The position numbers were made by a program, and so were the translations under genes. Shown here piece by piece: positions 24,435 to 32,996 of a stretch of 64,000 nucleotides of DNA; the first letter of the stretch is position 1; each line of letters opens with the position of its first letter. Location: the NCBI RefSeq assembly GCF_018304965.1, contig NZ_JAGQED010000021.1, positions 1-64,000 of the forward strand, written 5' to 3'. This DNA comes from Collimonas antrihumi (lineage in GTDB: Bacteria > Pseudomonadota > Gammaproteobacteria > Burkholderiales > Burkholderiaceae_D). The notes below the pieces were generated by a model. The model was not told where the DNA came from and did no database searches. It was given only the letters and a program-made list of their open reading frames with translations.

Positions 24435-26453
24435 TTAAGCCGCCTTAAAGACTAGCAACTGCGCCGATTCGCTTACTTGATCGCCCACTGTGTACAACAA
24501 CTCTTCTACAAGGCCATCAGACGGGGCGGCGATCGTGTGTTCCATTTTCATGGCTTCCATGATGAGTAATGGTGCGCCTTTTTTTACCTGTTCGCCTTGG
24601 GTTACCAGCAGCGCGACGATCTTGCCTGGCATCGGTGCTGTGAGGCGGCCGCCTTCGGCTTCGGTGTCGCCAGCATGCAGCAGCGGGTCGACATAGCCTA
24701 GCGTGTACTGGCTGCCGGCGTAAAACACGTGGAACTGTTCGCCTTCGCGCACTACCGTGCCGGCTACGGTTCTGTCGCCAAGGCTGATTTCGATGGCGTT
24801 ACCGTCTTGCTCCAGCACGGTCATCTGCTTGAAAGTCTGGGCGCCGAACTGCTCATGATGCAGCAACCAGCGGCCTGCCTCGTAGGTGACGTCGAGTGGA
24901 CTGGCGTTGCCGTCGTCGACAAATGCGAGGCGGCGTTGCAGGCTGCCGTTCAGGCGCCAGCCATCGGTATTGGTCCACGGATCACTGCCGGCGTTGTTTG
25001 CCGCATTACGTTCCGATAGCAGCAACGATGCTGCCGCCAAAGCGAATACTTCGATCGCCACCGGAGTAGCGGCGGGAAACAGGGTATCTTGATGACGTTC
25101 GATCAGGCCGGTATCCAGATCCGCTTCGGAGAATGGCTTGCCGGCAATCAGGCGCTGCAGGAATTTGACGTTGCTGGCGAGACCGACGATCTGATATTGC
25201 GCCAGCGCTTTCGCCATCGCAGCCAATGCTTGTTGCCGGTCCTGGCCCCAGACGATCAGCTTGGCGATCATCGGATCGTAGAACGGTGAGATCGCATCGC
25301 CTTGACGCACGCCGGAATCGATCCGGACGATGCTGGCGTTTGATTGGCTGACCTCGAACTCGGTGGCCGCCGGCGTGCGCAGATGGCGTAACGTGCCTAT
25401 CGACGGCAAGAATCCCTTGTCCGGATTTTCTGCATAGATACGCGCTTCCAGTGCATGGCCGCTCAGTTTCAATTGCTCCTGTTTGAGTGGCAACGGTTCG
25501 CCTGAAGCTACCCGCAACTGCCATTCGACCAGATCGAGGCCGGTAATCATTTCCGTCACCGGATGTTCTACCTGCAGGCGCGTGTTCATCTCCATGAAAT
25601 AGAAAGAACCATCCTGATTGGCGATGAACTCCACCGTACCGGCGCCAACGTACCCGACTGCCTTGGCCGCTGCCACAGCGGCTTCACCCATGGCGCGCCG
25701 GCGTTCCGGTGTCATGCCAGGTGCAGGCGCTTCTTCCAGCACTTTCTGATGGCGGCGCTGTACCGAGCAGTCGCGCTCGAACAGATAGACGCAATCGCCC
25801 TGGGTATCGGCAAACACCTGGATTTCGATGTGACGTGGACGGGTCAGGTAACGTTCGACCAGCACTTTGTCGTCGCCGAAACTGTTGATCGCTTCGCGTT
25901 TGCAGGAAGCCAGCGCAGCCTTGAAATCGGCGCTTTGCTCGACGATGCGCATCCCCTTCCCGCCGCCGCCGGCGCTGGCTTTCAGCAACACCGGGTAAGT
26001 GATCTTATCGGCTTGCTGTTGCAAGAAATCGGCATCCTGGTTCTCGCCGTGATAACCGGGCACCAGCGGCACCTTGGCTTTTTCCATCAATTCCTTGGCG
26101 GCCGACTTCGAGCCCATCGCCGAAATCGCACTGGCAGGCGGGCCGATGAATACCAGGCCGGCCTTGGCGCATGCTTGGGCAAACTGCGCGTTTTCAGACA
26201 GGAAACCGTAGCCGGGATGAATTGCCTGCGCGCCAGTGGCCAAGGCCACTTCGATGATCTTGTCGGCGCGCAGGTAACTTTCCTTGGCCGCAGCCGGCCC
26301 GATCAGCACCGCCTCGTCACACACCGCAACGTGCTTGGCGCCAGCGTCGGCATCCGAATACACGGCCACGGTCTTGATACCCATGCGCCGTGCGGTGGCT
26401 GCCACGCGGCAGGCAATCTCGCCGCGATTGGCAATCAGTATCTTGGTAAACAT
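24435..26453 (-). CDS. mccA: 3-Methylcrotonyl-CoA carboxylase biotin-carrying alpha subunit
   Basis: A 672-aa subunit (LiuD) that carboxylates its own biotin with bicarbonate and ATP and hands the CO2 to the beta subunit. An N-terminal biotin carboxylase domain (ILIANRGEIACRV; ATP-grasp loop KASAGGGGKGMR; EMNTRLQVEHPVTE) is followed by a linker and a C-terminal biotinyl domain with MEAMKMEHTI, the lysine being biotinylated. The ATG at 26453 has GGGGGAGA before it. bioB ends 23 bp upstream, so biotin synthesis and its acceptor are in one transcript. Assignment to MCC rather than propionyl- or geranyl-CoA carboxylase rests on the liu neighbours. Confidence 0.94.
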   Translation of the reverse strand: MFTKILIANRGEIACRVAATARRMGIKTVAVYSDADAGAKHVAVCDEAVLIGPAAAKESYLRADKIIEVALATGAQAIHPGYGFLSENAQFAQACAKAGLVFIGPPASAISAMGSKSAAKELMEKAKVPLVPGYHGENQDADFLQQQADKITYPVLLKASAGGGGKGMRIVEQSADFKAALASCKREAINSFGDDKVLVERYLTRPRHIEIQVFADTQGDCVYLFERDCSVQRRHQKVLEEAPAPGMTPERRRAMGEAAVAAAKAVGYVGAGTVEFIANQDGSFYFMEMNTRLQVEHPVTEMITGLDLVEWQLRVASGEPLPLKQEQLKLSGHALEARIYAENPDKGFLPSIGTLRHLRTPAATEFEVSQSNASIVRIDSGVRQGDAISPFYDPMIAKLIVWGQDRQQALAAMAKALAQYQIVGLASNVKFLQRLIAGKPFSEADLDTGLIERHQDTLFPAATPVAIEVFALAAASLLLSERNAANNAGSDPWTNTDGWRLNGSLQRRLAFVDDGNASPLDVTYEAGRWLLHHEQFGAQTFKQMTVLEQDGNAIEISLGDRTVAGTVVREGEQFHVFYAGSQYTLGYVDPLLHAGDTEAEGGRLTAPMPGKIVALLVTQGEQVKKGAPLLIMEAMKMEHTIAAPSDGLVEELLYTVGDQVSESAQLLVFKAA

Positions 26454-26476: not shown

Positions 26477-27523
26477 TTATTGCGGTTGGGTATTGCTGTC
26501 GGCGGTAACTTCGCAACGTGCATCGAATACCGATGACCGCGAATGCATGCCGAGTTTTTCCAGCAAGGCACGGTCCTCTTCCACTTCCGGATTACCGGTG
26601 GTGAGCAACTTGTCGCCGTAGAAAATCGAGTTGGCGCCGGCCAGGAAACACAGCGACTGGATCGCCTCACCCATCTGCCGGCGGCCAGCGGACAAACGCA
26701 CGCGCGCCTTCGGCATGGTGATACGGGCCACGGCCACGGTGCGCACGAATTCGAACAAGTCGATCGGATCTATGCCGTGCAAAGGCGTGCCTTCGACTTG
26801 CACCAGATTGTTCACCGGCACCGATTCCGGATACGGTTCCAGATTCGCCAGTTGCGCCACCAGGCCGGCACGTTGCAGGCGCGATTCGCCCATGCCGACG
26901 ATGCCGCCGCAGCAGACCTTGATGCCGGCGCCGCGCACGCTGTCGAGCGTATCCAGGCGGTTCTGGTAATCGCGGGTGGTGATGATGTCGCCGTAGATTT
27001 CCGGTGCGGTATCGAGATTGTGGTTGTAGTAATCGAGGCCGGCGCCCTTCAGGCGCTCAGCCTGGCCTTCGCCCAGCATGCCCAGCGTGGCGCAGGTTTC
27101 GAGGCCCAACGCCTTGACTTCGCGCACCATTTCTTCGACCTTTTCCAAGTCGCGGTCTTTCGGCTCACGCCATGCCGCGCCCATGCAGAAACGGGTTGCG
27201 CCATGCGCCTTGGCTTGGCGGGCGGCTTCCAGCACGGTATCCAGCGGCAGGATTTTCTGGGCGGTGACGCCGGTGTCGTAACGTGCCGCTTGCGGGCAGT
27301 AGCCGCAATCTTCCGGGCAGCCGCCGGTCTTGATCGACAACAGCGTCGCCAGCTCGACTTCATTCGGGTCGAAATTTTCACGATGCACTTGCTGCGCCTT
27401 GAACAACAGTTCGTTGAACGGCAGGTTGAACAAATCCAGCACGGTTTGCACCGGCCACTTGGCGTCGGCTGGCAGCACCATAGGCTTGGCGGCTGGCTGG
27501 AATGTAATTGGTTGCGATGACAT
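26477..27523 (-). CDS. bioB: Biotin synthase
   Basis: A 348-aa radical SAM enzyme inserting sulfur into dethiobiotin. The SAM cluster motif CPEDCGYC (CxxxCxxC) and the CGGIVGMGE segment are intact, as is RLSAGRRQM, whose arginine coordinates the second [2Fe-2S] cluster. The ATG at 27523 has AAAGGAAG upstream; a longer frame reaching 27592 would overlap bioD. Last gene of the biotin group, directly before mccA. Confidence 0.97.
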
Positions 27524-27555: not shown

Positions 27556-28305
27556 TTACGAGTTTGGTGTATTGCCGGATGGCGCAGGCCACCCCGGTAA
27601 ACAGGAAAAATTCAAATGACTGGCGGCGGCCTCGACCAGCGCCTTGGCGGGCAACGCGTTCATGCGCGGCACGTGGCCTAGAAATGGTGCATCAATGCGA
27701 TTCTTCAATGCGGCAATGTTGGCGTCGCCGTTGAGCATGGTCGGGTCGACCGTGTTGGCAACCCAGCCGGCCAGCCGCAAGCCGCGCGCGGCAATCGCCT
27801 CGACCGTCAGCAATGCATGGCTTATGCAACCCAGCCGCAAACCGACCACCAGCACCACCGGCAAACCGAGCTGCTGCGCCAGGTCGGCGGTATCGTGGGT
27901 ATCGTTGAGCGGCACGCGGAAGCCGCCCACGCCTTCGACTATCACGGCGTCGGCCAGCTCGGCGAGCTGTCGATAACATGACAGGATATGCGCCAGTTCG
28001 ATCGGCCGCTCTTCTTGTTCTGCGGCGATATGCGGTGCGGTCGCCTGACGCAATAGAAACGGTGTAGTCAATTCCTGTGGCAGCTTCACACTGGCCTCTG
28101 CCGCCAGGATATCGGCATCGTCGTTGTGCCAGACGCCATCGCGCAATTCAGCGCCGGCAGCGACCGGTTTCATGCCGGCGCTGCGAACACCGGTTTTAGT
28201 CAGTCCATGCAGCAAGGCGCCGGCGATCAGCGTCTTGCCGATTTCTGTATCGGTGCCGGCGACGAACCACGCGGCCTTTTGGGTATTTACGATAGGGTCA
28301 GTCAT
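27556..28305 (-). CDS. bioD: Dethiobiotin synthetase
   Basis: A 249-aa ATP-dependent carboxylase closing the ureido ring of biotin from 7,8-diaminopelargonate. The P-loop GTDTEIGKT is at residues 17-25 and [14 protein letters not shown] matches the second nucleotide/substrate loop. It overlaps bioA by 8 nt at its 5' end, and bioB begins 32 bp downstream. Confidence 0.96.
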
Positions 28306-29677
28306 GATCGATCACGCTTTCGAAAACCATGGCAGTGCGAGTAGCCAGCAACTCGATCTCTTCATCGTCGAGAATATACGGCGGCATCAGGTAGACCGTT
28401 TTTCCGATCGGCCGCAGCAGCAATTCATGCTCCACCGCGCTGCTGAAAAACCGGCGTGAAAATGTCGCCGCGTGCGCCTTGCTATCGATGACGGCGTCAA
28501 AAGCCCAGATCATGCCGCGTTGACGGAAATGCTGCACTTTAGGATGCTGCGCCAAAGGCGCCAACGCGGCGGTAATGCGTTCTGCCCGCCGGCGATTGAC
28601 GTTGATCACATCGTCTTCCCGGAAAATCGCCAGCGTTGCCAGCGCAGCACGGCAAGCCAGCGGATTACCGGTGTAGGAATGCGAGTGGAGGAAACCGCGC
28701 GCCAGGTCGTTATCGTAGAAAGCCTGATAGATTTCGTCGCGCGTCATCACCAGCGACAAAGGCAGGTAACCGCCGCTGATGCCTTTCGACAGACACAGGA
28801 AATCCGGCCAGATTGGCGCCTCTCCCGGCGCAGCCGCCTGCTCGGAAGCGAAGAAAGTACCGGTGCGGCCGCAGCCGACGGCAATTTCATCAAAAATCAG
28901 GTGGACTTTGTAGCGGTCGCATAAAGCGCGCAATTCGCGCAGATAAACCGGATCGTGCATCGCCATGCCGGTGGCGCATTGCACCAGCGGTTCGATGATG
29001 ATGGCGGCGATATGGCTGGAACGCTGCTGCAACAATTTTTCCAGTGTTGCAGCTGCCCGGTGGGCGACGTCGGCAGCGCTCTCAGCGTCGCGCGCGCCAC
29101 GTGCATCGGGCGACGCCACCACATGCGCCTGGCGCAGCAAGGGGCCATAGGCATCGCGAAACAACGGCACGTCGGTAACCGCCAACGCGCCGATGGTTTC
29201 GCCGTGATAACTGCCTTTCAGGCACACGAACTCCTGCTTGTCGGTGTAACCCGCGTTACGCCATGCATGGAAACTCATCTTCAAGGCGATCTCGACTGCC
29301 GAGGCGCCGTCGGAGGCATAGAAACAATGACCCAGCACATTGCCGGTGCGCGCCGCCAGCTGCTCAGACAACTGCACGACCGGTTCATGCGTAAAGCCGG
29401 CCAGCATGGCGTGTTCGAGCTGGTCGATCTGATCTTTCAATGCGGTATTGATGCGTGGATTGGCATGGCCGAACAGGTTGACCCACCAGGAGCTGATCGC
29501 ATCCAGGTAGCGTTTGCCGTCGCTGTCATACAGCCAGGCGCCACGGCCGCGGCTGACCGCGATCAGCGGCACCGATTCATGGTGCTGCATTTGGGTACAC
29601 GGATGCCAGACACTGTTCAGGCTACGCTGAATCAGATCCGACTGTGGTGCAAGTGCATCTGTACTATTCTTACGCAA
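28298..29677 (-). CDS. bioA: Adenosylmethionine-8-amino-7-oxononanoate aminotransferase
   Basis: A 459-aa fold-type-I PLP transaminase producing 7,8-diaminopelargonate with S-adenosylmethionine as amino donor. SVWHPCTQM at the N-terminus is BioA-specific; [13 protein letters not shown] and [12 protein letters not shown] (Schiff-base lysine) are intact. The likely start is TTG at 29677, overlapping the bioF stop (TTGCGTAA) with GAGGAA just upstream; an in-frame ATG at 29710 would add 11 residues with no visible site. Confidence 0.94.
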
Positions 29678-30854
29678 TTGTGTTCCTCGTATAGTGCTCA
29701 GCCAGCACATGCAGTGCGCTGACCAACTTATCTATTTGTTCAATGCTGTGCGCCGCCGACAGCGATATGCGCAAGCGCGCGGTGTCTTTCGGCACGGTCG
29801 GCGGCCGGATCGCCGGCACCCAGATGCCTTGCTCGCGCAGCCCTGCCATCAGATCCAGCGCCAGCTGGTTATCTTCAACGATCAACGCTTGCACCGGCGT
29901 TTCTGACGGCAGCAAAGGCCAGGGCAAGCTAGCCAATCCGCTGCGCAGCCGCGCAATCAAATCGCGCAAGTGCTGTTGCCGCCAATCCTCGACCTGCATC
30001 AGCTTGACTGCCGCCAGCAAAGCGCTCGCCAGCATGGGTGGGCTGGCCGTAGTAAACACGTAGGTGCGCGCCCGCTGCAGCAACCATTCAATCAGCAGCG
30101 CATCGCCGGCGACGAAGGCGCCTGCCACTCCGGCCGCTTTGCCCAAGGTCCCCATATACAGGATGCGTTGCGACTGCAATCCGAAATGCGCCAGGCTGCC
30201 GCGTCCTTGCGGACCCAACACGCCGAAGCCGTGGGCATCGTCGACCAGCAGCCAGGCATCGTATTTTTCGCACAAGGCCAGCAGTTCCGGTAATGGCGCG
30301 ATATCGCCATCCATGCTGAACACGGCATCGGTGACGATCAGCTTGCGCGGGTGATCGCTCTTGGCCAGCAATTGTTCCAGTCTTGCCACATCGGCATGCG
30401 GGTAGATGCGGAACTGCGCACCCGACAAACGCGCGCCGTCTATCAGGCAGGCGTGATTCAGGCGATCTGAAAATACGATATCGCCGGGGCCGACCAGTGC
30501 CGGGATGGTCCCCATGTTCGCCATGTAGCCGGTCGAAAAATGCAAGGCGCGCGGCATGCCGACGAATTCCGCCAGCGCCAGTTCCAATTCCTCAACCACG
30601 CTGGTGTGGCCGCTGATCAAGGCTGATGCGCTGGCGCCGACGCCGTATCGGTCGAGCCCGGCTTGCGCTGCAGCACGCAGAGCCGGATGGTTCGCCAGGC
30701 CCAGATAATCGTTGCTGCAAAAGGACAGGTATTGCCGGCCATCGACATCCAGCAACGGCTCCTGCGGACCATCGACGATGCGCCGCTTGCGCAACAGCTT
30801 CTGCTCTTGCAACGCAGCCAGCTGGTCGCGGATCTGGGTCAGCAACTCAGGCAT
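29670..30854 (-). CDS. bioF: 8-Amino-7-oxononanoate synthase
   Basis: A 394-aa PLP enzyme condensing pimeloyl-ACP (or pimeloyl-CoA) with alanine, the first ring-assembly step of biotin. SFCSNDYLGLANHP, TDAVFSMDGDIAPL, VDDAHGFGVLG and GTLGKAAGVAGAFVAG with the PLP lysine are all present. The ATG at 30854 has GGAGG 6 nt upstream and overlaps the P450 stop by 8 nt, so its translation depends on the P450 reading frame. Confidence 0.96.
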   Translation of the reverse strand: MPELLTQIRDQLAALQEQKLLRKRRIVDGPQEPLLDVDGRQYLSFCSNDYLGLANHPALRAAAQAGLDRYGVGASASALISGHTSVVEELELALAEFVGMPRALHFSTGYMANMGTIPALVGPGDIVFSDRLNHACLIDGARLSGAQFRIYPHADVARLEQLLAKSDHPRKLIVTDAVFSMDGDIAPLPELLALCEKYDAWLLVDDAHGFGVLGPQGRGSLAHFGLQSQRILYMGTLGKAAGVAGAFVAGDALLIEWLLQRARTYVFTTASPPMLASALLAAVKLMQVEDWRQQHLRDLIARLRSGLASLPWPLLPSETPVQALIVEDNQLALDLMAGLREQGIWVPAIRPPTVPKDTARLRISLSAAHSIEQIDKLVSALHVLAEHYTRNTIA

Positions 30855-32148
30855 ATTGGGCCTCCGCTGGTGTTGCTGGTGTTGCTGCTGTTGCTTGCTC
30901 TGCCGCCGACGGCCGTGCAAATTTTAGCGGCAGCTGGTTCAGGCTGCGATATACCGCGTTGCCGCCCCATGACTGGATGTCGCCGGCCAGTCGCAATTGC
31001 GGCAAGCGTTGCATCACGCTGCGCATCGCGATTTCTGCTTCCAGGTAGGTCAGCGTTGCACCGATGCAGACGTGCGGGCCATAACCGAAGGACAGATGGG
31101 CGCCCTGGTTGCGCGCGATATCGAGTTGGTCCGGATCTGTGAATTTGGCGGGATCGCGATTGGCGGCGCCGATCAGCGGGATCACCAGATCGCCCTTTTT
31201 CATCAGCTGGCCGTGCATCTCGACATCGACCTTGAGCCGACGGCCGGTGTACTGCACCGGGCTGTCAAAACGCAGTAATTCTTTTAGAGCAGACGGCAGC
31301 AGCGACGGCGTGCTTTGCAAAGCTTGCCATTGTTCCGGATGTTGCAACAGCGCCAGCATGCCGTTGCCAAGCAGGTTACGCGTGGTTTCATGACCGGCGA
31401 ACAGCAGCGTGCAGCACTGCGCCAGCAACTCTTTAGTGGTGATGATGCCGCCCGTAGCTTCAGCGCGTATCAGCTGACTCATCAAGTCGTCGCCCAACGC
31501 TGCGCGACGCTGCGGCAACAGCTGGCGGAAATATTCGTTCATGGCGATCAGGCTGACCTGGGCCGCGCGGGCGATTTCAAGCGTCGGCGTCGGACTGCCG
31601 ATGAAAGCGGCAATATCGTCGGACCAGGCAACAAATTCACTGCGGTCTTCAGCGGCAATGCCGAGCATGCTGGCGATCACCAGCGCCGGCAGCGGACGGG
31701 CGAAGTCGCGCATGAAGTCGAATTGCGCGAATTCAGCAAACTGCCCGGACGCGCCGCAGTCAGCGGCCTTGGCCAATACCTGGTCGAGCAAACGATCGAC
31801 AATAATCTGGATCTGCGGCCCCAATTCCTGCAATGCCGCAGGCTTGAAGCCGGCATTCATCACTTGCCGCAAGCGAGTGTGCTGCGGCGCATCCACAAAC
31901 AATAGCGAACGTGAAAAAATCCGTTTGAATTCGCGCAGTTCGGCCAGCGCCCCCGGGCCGCTGCTATTAGCCCAGCCGCCGGCGCGGCGCACCGAGAAAC
32001 GCGGATCGCGCAACACGCTGGCGACATCGGCATGGCCGGTCAGCAGCCAGGCGCCGCCGCAGAACTCCGGGCTCCAATGCAACGCGCCTTGGGCACGCAG
32101 AGCGTGGTAAGCCGGGTAAGGGTCGTTCAAAAATTCTTCGTTAATCAT
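30847..32148 (-). CDS. Cytochrome P450 heading the biotin operon, possible BioI analogue
   Basis: A 433-aa soluble class I bacterial P450. The I-helix oxygen-activation motif LLFAGHETTRNLL, the K-helix E-L-L-R pair (KELLRFDSPVQYTGR) and the heme loop FGYGPHVCIG with ligand Cys361 are intact. The overall pattern resembles the CYP107 group, to which B. subtilis BioI belongs; BioI oxidatively cleaves acyl-ACP to give pimeloyl-ACP. Its stop overlaps bioF by 8 nt, so it is co-translated with the enzyme that uses pimeloyl thioester. Supplying that precursor is a strong inference but unproven; no ferredoxin or reductase gene is adjacent. The Ala/Thr-rich tail after residue 410 is probably unstructured. 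Confidence 0.9.
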   Translation of the reverse strand: MINEEFLNDPYPAYHALRAQGALHWSPEFCGGAWLLTGHADVASVLRDPRFSVRRAGGWANSSGPGALAELREFKRIFSRSLLFVDAPQHTRLRQVMNAGFKPAALQELGPQIQIIVDRLLDQVLAKAADCGASGQFAEFAQFDFMRDFARPLPALVIASMLGIAAEDRSEFVAWSDDIAAFIGSPTPTLEIARAAQVSLIAMNEYFRQLLPQRRAALGDDLMSQLIRAEATGGIITTKELLAQCCTLLFAGHETTRNLLGNGMLALLQHPEQWQALQSTPSLLPSALKELLRFDSPVQYTGRRLKVDVEMHGQLMKKGDLVIPLIGAANRDPAKFTDPDQLDIARNQGAHLSFGYGPHVCIGATLTYLEAEIAMRSVMQRLPQLRLAGDIQSWGGNAVYRSLNQLPLKFARPSAAEQATAATPATPAEAQYA

Positions 32149-32210: not shown

Positions 32211-32996
32211 TCACTGCAGCCAGGACGGTTTGCGCTTCTCCAGGAAGGCGCGTACACCCTCCCGCCCTTCAGTAGAAGCGCGGATTTTAGCGATATCTTC
32301 AACCGTATCGGCAATCAGCGCCTCAGTCAGCGGCTGGCCCGCAATCGCGCGCACCAGGCGCTTGGCTTCAGTGACGGCGTTGGGGCTGGCCGCCAATAAT
32401 GCCTTGAGCAACAAATTCACGCTTTCATCCAATTTTTCTGCGACAACCACCTCATGCACCAGGCCGAGCTTTTGCGCAGTTTCGGCAGAAAATCGTTCTG
32501 CAGTAATAAAGTAACGACGCGCAGCCGACTCGCCGATGGCTTTGATGACATAGGGCGAAATGGTTGCCGGAATCAAGCCAATCTTCACTTCCGACAGGCA
32601 GAACTGCGCCGTACCCACCGCCGCCACGATATCGCAGGCAGCCACCAGGCCAAGTCCGCCGGCATAGCAATCGCCCTGCACCTTGGCGATCACCGGCTTC
32701 GGGCATTGGTAGATGGTGCGCAACATGGTCGCCAGCTGGGCGGCATCGGCGCGATTCTGTTCCGGCGTGTAATCCGCCATCGCCTTCATCCAGTTAAGAT
32801 CGCCACCGGCGCTGAACGCTGCGCCATTTGCCGCCAGCACGATCGCCCTGACCCCGGCGTTGCTGCCCAAATCGGCAAAGGCGTGGGTGATTTCGGCAAT
32901 CATGGTCTCGTTGAAGGCATTACGTACTTCGGGCCGATTGAGGACGATGGTAGCCACCTGCGACGCATGTTGTATTGCTAAAGTCTGATAAGTCAT
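32211..32996 (-). CDS. liuC: Methylglutaconyl-CoA hydratase (enoyl-CoA hydratase family)
   Basis: A 261-aa crotonase-fold enzyme. RPEVRNAFNETMI, the oxyanion hole segments NGAAFSAGGDLNWMK and GDCYAGGLGLVAACD, and a catalytic glutamate region (SEVKIGLIPATISPYV) are visible. GLIPATISPYV is typical of the LiuC/AUH branch, which hydrates 3-methylglutaconyl-CoA to HMG-CoA. It overlaps the upstream hydrolase gene by 4 nt, and the P450 start is 62 bp further on. Confidence 0.92.
   Translation of the reverse strand: MTYQTLAIQHASQVATIVLNRPEVRNAFNETMIAEITHAFADLGSNAGVRAIVLAANGAAFSAGGDLNWMKAMADYTPEQNRADAAQLATMLRTIYQCPKPVIAKVQGDCYAGGLGLVAACDIVAAVGTAQFCLSEVKIGLIPATISPYVIKAIGESAARRYFITAERFSAETAQKLGLVHEVVVAEKLDESVNLLLKALLAASPNAVTEAKRLVRAIAGQPLTEALIADTVEDIAKIRASTEGREGVRAFLEKRKPSWLQ

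Follow-up and report, generated by a model that had tools for sequence, protein, structure and literature searches.

How does a bacterium whose biotin operon contains neither bioC nor bioH obtain the pimeloyl chain of the vitamin, and does the cytochrome P450 gene at the head of that operon provide it? This question is raised by a 64,000-nucleotide stretch of Collimonas antrihumi (contig NZ_JAGQED010000021.1, positions 1 to 64,000; the whole of it is hereafter called the window), in which the genes P450-bioF-bioA-bioD-bioB lie in this order on the minus strand. Our preferred answer, to which we give a probability of about 0.64, is that the P450 serves biotin synthesis specifically and makes pimeloyl thioester for the adjacent BioF, and that it resembles BioI of Bacillus subtilis, was recruited separately and replaces the BioC-BioH pair. 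The evidence comprises the linkage of the P450 to bioF, the co-divergence of the two proteins, the exclusion of bioH-bioC, the distribution of the gene, BioC and BioH scores below cut-off and a structural likeness to BioI.

The P450 gene and its tie to bioF

The P450 open reading frame (ORF; 30847-32148, minus strand) starts with ATG and encodes 433 amino acids with zero internal stops. It matches Pfam PF00067 at 83.9 bits (cut-off 22.8), with no second match found across the genome (4.72 Mb), and carries the heme signature FGYGPHVCIG including Cys361, the ExxR pair E290-R293 and the I-helix motif AGxETT; Cys361, E290, R293, G252, E254, T255 and T256 are invariant in an alignment of 13 P450s. 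The initial annotation had described an intact P450 with heme Cys361 that overlaps bioF by 8 nucleotides (nt) at the operon head, and both points were confirmed: bioF begins with an ATG at 30854, and the TGA that ends the P450 occupies 30849-30847, giving an overlap of exactly 8 nt (30847-30854). The operon and its flanking genes, all on the minus strand, are as follows, with bioF, bioA, bioD and bioB each scoring above its own NCBIfam cut-off.

30847..32148, minus strand: cytochrome P450 of 433 amino acids, heading the biotin operon and proposed to form pimeloyl thioester by cleaving an acyl chain
29670..30854, minus strand: bioF, placed by the trees in the P450-linked BioF clade (TIGR00858, 488.9 bits, cut-off 426.45)
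28298..29710, minus strand: bioA ORF, true start probably slightly inside (TIGR00508, 521.8 bits, cut-off 405; conserved order)
27556..28305, minus strand: bioD ORF, overlapping bioA by 8 nt (TIGR00347, 158.5 bits, cut-off 83.3)
26477..27523, minus strand: bioB (TIGR00433, 404.9 bits, cut-off 225)
24435..26453, minus strand: biotin-dependent carboxylase of the methylcrotonyl-CoA carboxylase alpha type (Pfam Biotin_carb_N, Biotin_lipoyl and BT_MCC_alpha), downstream of bioB, a neighbourhood common to P450-less relatives
32211..32996, minus strand: enoyl-CoA hydratase-family gene upstream of the P450, likewise a neighbourhood common to P450-less relatives

We surveyed a family sample of 392 genomes and a phylum sample of 398, and in the counts 43/43, 21/23, 0/11 and 41/45 below, a genome without a listed match is scored as lacking one. 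P450s at E <= 1e-60 were found in 72 of the 392 family genomes, and 43 genomes carry the close type (15 of genus g1, 5 of g15, 21 of g27, and G036 and G314). By coordinates, the close-type P450 immediately precedes a same-strand bioF in 43/43. Eleven named-genome loci (L018-L026, L028 and L031) read P450-bioF-bioA-bioD-bioB, an order typical of Collimonas and Glaciimonas; L027 is P450-bioF alone and L032 is bioB-P450-bioF-bioA-bioD. This last order was also read in 11 of 13 g27 loci with a P450, the remaining two being P450-F-A-D-B (L076) and P450-F alone (L074); the G314 locus (L075) is also P450-F alone. Within g27, the P450 occurs in 21/23 bioF-positive genomes and in 0/11 bioF-negative ones. 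Beyond the close type, ten g19 genomes hold a sister P450 that is roughly 50% identical. The phylum sample at E <= 1e-75 added three genomes beyond the window's own and one congener; one of the three is biotin-linked (G656, L193:8702-13198): this 1.2 Mb genome, from a different Burkholderiales family, keeps P450-bioF-bioA-bioD. A 1.7 Mb Collimonas genome in 130 contigs and 99% complete (G083, L148) also keeps P450-bioFADB.

The overlap itself recurs, identical at 8 nt from the start of the BLAST match, in 9 of 13 named-genome loci measured. L025 has it too, provided that translation starts at an in-frame ATG lying 45 nt before the match; the overlap is 16 nt in L021, and at the match start L028 and L032 show gaps of 22 and 133 nt. 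The P450 protein is 84-94% identical to the window's in eight named Collimonas loci, and the ratio of nonsynonymous to synonymous substitutions against the window P450 was 0.04-0.09 in eight comparisons (seven Collimonas, one Glaciimonas; a ninth gave no value), evidence of strong purifying selection.

The two proteins also diverge together. Across the 25 distinct P450-BioF loci kept for the test, P450 and BioF identities correlate at r = 0.919, a value reached in 0 of 2000 permutations. The BioF tree falls into three groups matching operon type, namely a P450-linked group (31 rows together with G301 and G316; support 99), the BioFs of bioF-bioH-bioC operons (9 rows; 98) and those of bioA-F-D-B operons (12 rows; 100), and the same groups were recovered after E. 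coli BioF was added. The quick tree omitted stop-containing BLAST stretches, both of the P450 (L165, L090, two in L037, L040 and L039) and of BioF (L154 and L138).

Transfer of the P450 and its biotin genes between bacteria is evident. The alphaproteobacterium Devosia elaeis has the whole operon, with a P450 at 73-74% identity. In Mesorhizobium norvegicum (L029:4777-7542) the P450 frame is open, but only a short remnant of bioF adjoins it, and a panC fragment lies upstream. A plasmid of Cupriavidus sp. P-10 carries bioA-F-D-B-P450, in which the beginning of the P450 gene overlaps the end of bioB and the BioF is nearest the A-F-D-B clade; on a Polaromonas plasmid the P450 comes after bioB, and both bioF and P450 match there as separate pieces. 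A plasmid search with BioF at E <= 1e-110 gave zero matches. Since the linkage holds in 43/43 genomes, in varied gene orders and in transferred copies, we rejected the explanation that the P450 is a chance neighbour of bioF; it is a stable biotin gene.

Some further copies and neighbourhoods were recorded along the way. Glaciimonas soli has, besides its main operon, extra P450 copies (L030, L035, which is partial, and L163) that are 64-66% identical to the window's and lie beside bioB pieces, one bioB being in two frames. In G197 (L091) the P450, bioF and an acyl-CoA ligase are each spread over more than one frame, possibly through assembly errors. In Devosia elaeis (L028:1646-11082) the operon follows riboflavin synthase, ribBA-type and lumazine synthase genes, forming a two-vitamin cluster, and an integrase-core ORF lies downstream. 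A Cupriavidus pinatubonensis plasmid (L199:4887-9827) carries a solitary related P450 next to a gene for the biotin enzyme pyruvate carboxylase.

BioC, BioH and the methyltransferase beside comF

We scored BioC with NCBIfam TIGR02072 (cut-off 184.95 bits) and BioH with TIGR01738 (206.95 bits). The initial annotation had reported bioC and bioH as absent, which is true of the operon; across the window's genome neither profile had a match over its cut-off, the best scores being 166.6 bits for BioC and 52.4 bits for BioH (BioW, BioZ and BioE were not searched). Intact bioC and bioH elsewhere in the genome would have spoken against the proposal of the initial annotation, and by these curated cut-offs there are none. 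The comparison was extended to 80 genomes chosen from the 392, comprising all 43 with the P450, 10 P450-less g27 genomes (8 without bioF and 2 with it), 9 P450-less genomes with bioF-bioH-bioC operons, 13 other bioF-positive genomes and 5 bioF-negative ones of other genera. BioC exceeded its cut-off in 9/80, all nine being bioF-bioH-bioC genomes without the close P450, and in 0/43 P450 genomes; in these 80 genomes the P450 and curated BioC are mutually exclusive. In 10 loci retrieved from this family, bioF is followed directly by the bioH-bioC pair. The BioH cut-off is strict: best scores in the nine operon genomes range over 142-208 bits, with one of the nine operon BioHs passing and the others at 142-196 bits, and the other 71 genomes either stayed at or below 101 bits or had no match at E <= 1e-20. 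Neither Devosia elaeis nor Mesorhizobium norvegicum has a BioC over cut-off.

The best BioC score in the window's genome (166.6-166.7 bits, below 184.95) belongs to one gene (L002:1387-2331, plus strand) that is divergent from a gene whose matches to the comF and GntX models fall short of the cut-offs. Its next models are another BioC model at 82.9 bits and a first non-BioC model at 62.7. Homologues at E <= 1e-30 occur in 383/392 genomes, in 41/45 of those without bioF and in 14/15 genomes of the window's genus; none was found in G083, which keeps P450-bioFADB. The comF linkage was seen in L002, L149, L151, L183 and L184, including both family genomes read besides the window's (G152 and G263); elsewhere the count is of the homologue alone, its neighbours unread, and in L002 and L183 the comF match is below cut-off. 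Homologues in Devosia (L183:1276-2112) and Mesorhizobium (L184) likewise adjoin a comF-like gene; among alphaproteobacteria, Agrobacterium and Mesorhizobium japonicum use BioZ according to PMC7645780. An unrooted tree, in which E. coli BioC and the alphaproteobacterial genes form long branches, splits 16 betaproteobacterial and 2 alphaproteobacterial comF-type genes from 11 BioCs (E. coli and 10 from operons) with support 100/99.

Its sub-cut-off score, its persistence without bioF and its grouping with comF-linked alphaproteobacterial genes led us to set it aside as a BioC elsewhere in the genome. We doubt that the gene is BioC, which is no proof that it is not, because pairwise identities separate it poorly from BioC. 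It may resemble NDUFAF5, a complex I assembly hydroxylase. If the P450 does supply the chain, the doubt about this gene grows; it is perhaps not BioC, and "bioC" calls in Burkholderiales deserve a test. The passages of PMC4938201 consulted name no bacterial NDUFAF5.

The same gene would be central if the P450 replaced BioH alone, with the comF-side methyltransferase starting methyl-capped synthesis and the P450 oxidatively demethylating pimeloyl-ACP methyl ester (ACP, acyl carrier protein). BioC is indeed its best family (166.7 bits), its identity to operon BioCs reaches 41%, and it has homologues in 14/15 genus genomes; no BioH was found. However, it scores below the BioC cut-off, groups with the comF-linked alphaproteobacterial genes away from E. 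coli BioC, is kept in 41/45 bioF-less genomes and was not found in the P450-keeping G083, and we regard such a division of labour as very improbable.

The proposed reaction and the evidence weighed

If the P450 takes the place of BioC-BioH, it would bind a long-chain fatty acyl group attached to ACP or perhaps to coenzyme A (CoA), oxidise the neighbouring mid-chain carbons C7 and C8 and cleave the bond between them, consuming O2 and electrons and leaving a C7 dicarboxylyl thioester. The co-translated BioF would condense this product with alanine, and BioA, BioD and BioB would then complete biotin. Electrons could come from general ferredoxin or flavodoxin partners, which we assume because a crude scan of the P450 loci for a ferredoxin motif gave 0 matches (non-overlapping ORFs of 60 to <130 amino acids); the window's ORF list has no redox partner gene adjoining the P450, in agreement with the initial annotation. 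The enzyme would have been recruited separately from the broad CYP107-like P450s to stand in for the BioC-BioH pair.

The predicted structure is consistent with this scheme, since its best match in the PDB is acyl-ACP-bound BioI. The AlphaFold2 model, built on a deeper alignment, reached a predicted local distance difference test (pLDDT) score of 85.8, the first model having reached 69.1; the match shows a shared shape and not function. Together with the tracking of bioF and the exclusion of BioC, the BioI-like model upholds part of the initial annotation's proposal of a BioI-type pimeloyl source: the P450 is part of biotin synthesis, and supply of the pimeloyl precursor is its most likely role. 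We consider the chances about even for the fuller picture, in which biotin synthesis in Collimonas, Glaciimonas and further Burkholderiales (the 1.2 Mb genome among them) begins with an independently evolved P450 route that needs O2, is functional and is probably essential, moves between bacteria as a P450-bioF cassette paired with a BioF clade of its own, and feeds BioF through a BioI-type reaction.

A P450 with this fold might instead serve another part of biotin or fatty-acid metabolism, such as the scavenging of longer diacids or hydroxylated fatty acids, its operon link being regulatory only. Related P450s that adjoin acyl-CoA ligases or AMP-binding proteins (L085, L195 and L201) would fit such general fatty-acyl chemistry. 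Yet the P450 stands specifically next to bioF, pairs with a single BioF clade, does not co-occur with bioH-bioC in any tested genome and has its closest fold in acyl-ACP-bound BioI, which makes this explanation improbable.

Several observations weigh against pimeloyl supply by the P450. The comF-side gene may yet be BioC: it is 41% identical to one operon BioC (score 347) versus 39% to the Devosia gene (218), and its methyltransferase domain match is far stronger than that of the Devosia gene. A single-sequence PDB search with the P450 placed PikC slightly above BioI. The sister P450 of g19 was by bio genes in 0 of the 5 loci read (4 genomes). G301 (L132:7004-8143) has a P450-clade BioF in a complete bio operon and no P450; in G316, the other g27 exception, bioF lies about 200 bases from the contig end. 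In both of these BioC and BioH are below cut-off as well, and neither passed its cut-off in any of the 13 P450-less bioF-positive genomes of other operon type (bioA-F-D-B order read in nine of them, L135-L147). Absence of BioC and BioH is common in this family, which therefore must hold another pimeloyl route, and that unrecognised route could be present in Collimonas too; BioE is reported in Burkholderiaceae in PMC12915131. Moreover, B. subtilis BioI is described as dispensable, with a product unused by its BioF, in PMC7645780 and PMC12915131, so operon membership alone is no proof of need.

These points open the possibility that the P450 is a backup or tuning enzyme like B. subtilis BioI, with an unrecognised route (BioZ-, BioW- or BioE-like or other) making most pimelate and the P450 adding to it in air. 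Such a role would suit the P450-less bioF-positive Burkholderiaceae without BioC or BioH over cut-off (13/13, and G301 and G316), the retention of a P450-clade BioF without a P450 in G301, and the dispensability of BioI in B. subtilis noted in PMC7645780. It sits less well with the strong purifying selection on the P450, the 43/43 linkage and P450-BioF co-divergence, the keeping of the gene in two small genomes and the occurrence of P450-bioF pairs apart from other bio genes, and we judge it unlikely. Supply of the pimeloyl chain by the P450 itself remains the reading we prefer, and it turns the pimelate source of P450-less Burkholderiaceae into a question of its own.

Comparison with BioI and other pimeloyl routes

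BioI (CYP107H1 of B. subtilis; PDB 3EJB, 3EJD and 3EJE) is the nearest solved structure to the biotin-operon P450, and the two share the trait of being encoded in a biotin operon. The window P450 differs from it in standing directly before bioF with an 8-nt overlap. P450 families are usually defined by more than 40% identity; the window P450 is 34-36% identical to BioI and falls outside the family by that rule. In the quick tree BioI joined another long branch, and in the careful tree it falls among other CYP107-type enzymes. Approximately unbiased (AU) tests reject a clade uniting the biotin-linked P450s with BioI (p = 6e-67 and 7e-4, and 0.015 with the g19 sisters), in a tree with one BioI sequence, 6 reference P450s and long branches. 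Strict BioI orthology was ruled out by these tests, with the same composition of the tree, and the idea that the P450 is BioI or its CYP107H orthologue is not supported. The initial annotation had counted a placement far from BioI as evidence against its proposal; the phylogeny with CYP107H places the P450 away from BioI, because the tree sets BioI among other CYP107-type enzymes and the AU tests reject the union. A BioI-like function has probably arisen from a separate P450 lineage.

Our literature search, covering titles and the starts of abstracts with few subscription papers, found among the papers listed no P450 described in a betaproteobacterial biotin operon and no paper for Collimonas, biotin and P450 together. 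BioI is said to be unique to B. subtilis in a 2025 paper (PMC12915131) and to be present in a limited number of microorganisms in PMC11089781, and PMC7645780 calls it an enigma, being dispensable and making a product that its BioF cannot use. If our reading is true, bacteria have recruited oxidative chain cleavage on more than one occasion and here put it to real use, and a proteobacterial biotin-operon P450, apart from BioI, takes the place of bioC-bioH with a BioF clade of its own. The locus makes the P450 as a real source of biotin's carbon chain a testable question.

Among the other known systems, BioC-BioH serves the same biosynthetic step as is proposed for the P450 and is unrelated to it, being a methyltransferase and an esterase that use no oxygen. 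The nearest solved P450s after BioI are PikC, CalO2, PksS and CYP107P2 (8YHN), which, judged by their PDB titles, are other P450s and not biotin genes. BioE of Elizabethkingia and Chlamydia, as described in PMC12915131, oxidatively cleaves long-chain acyl-ACP or acyl-CoA to a pimeloyl thioester and bypasses BioC-BioH. It would be a functional analogue of the Collimonas P450, but it is a non-heme diiron enzyme and not a P450.

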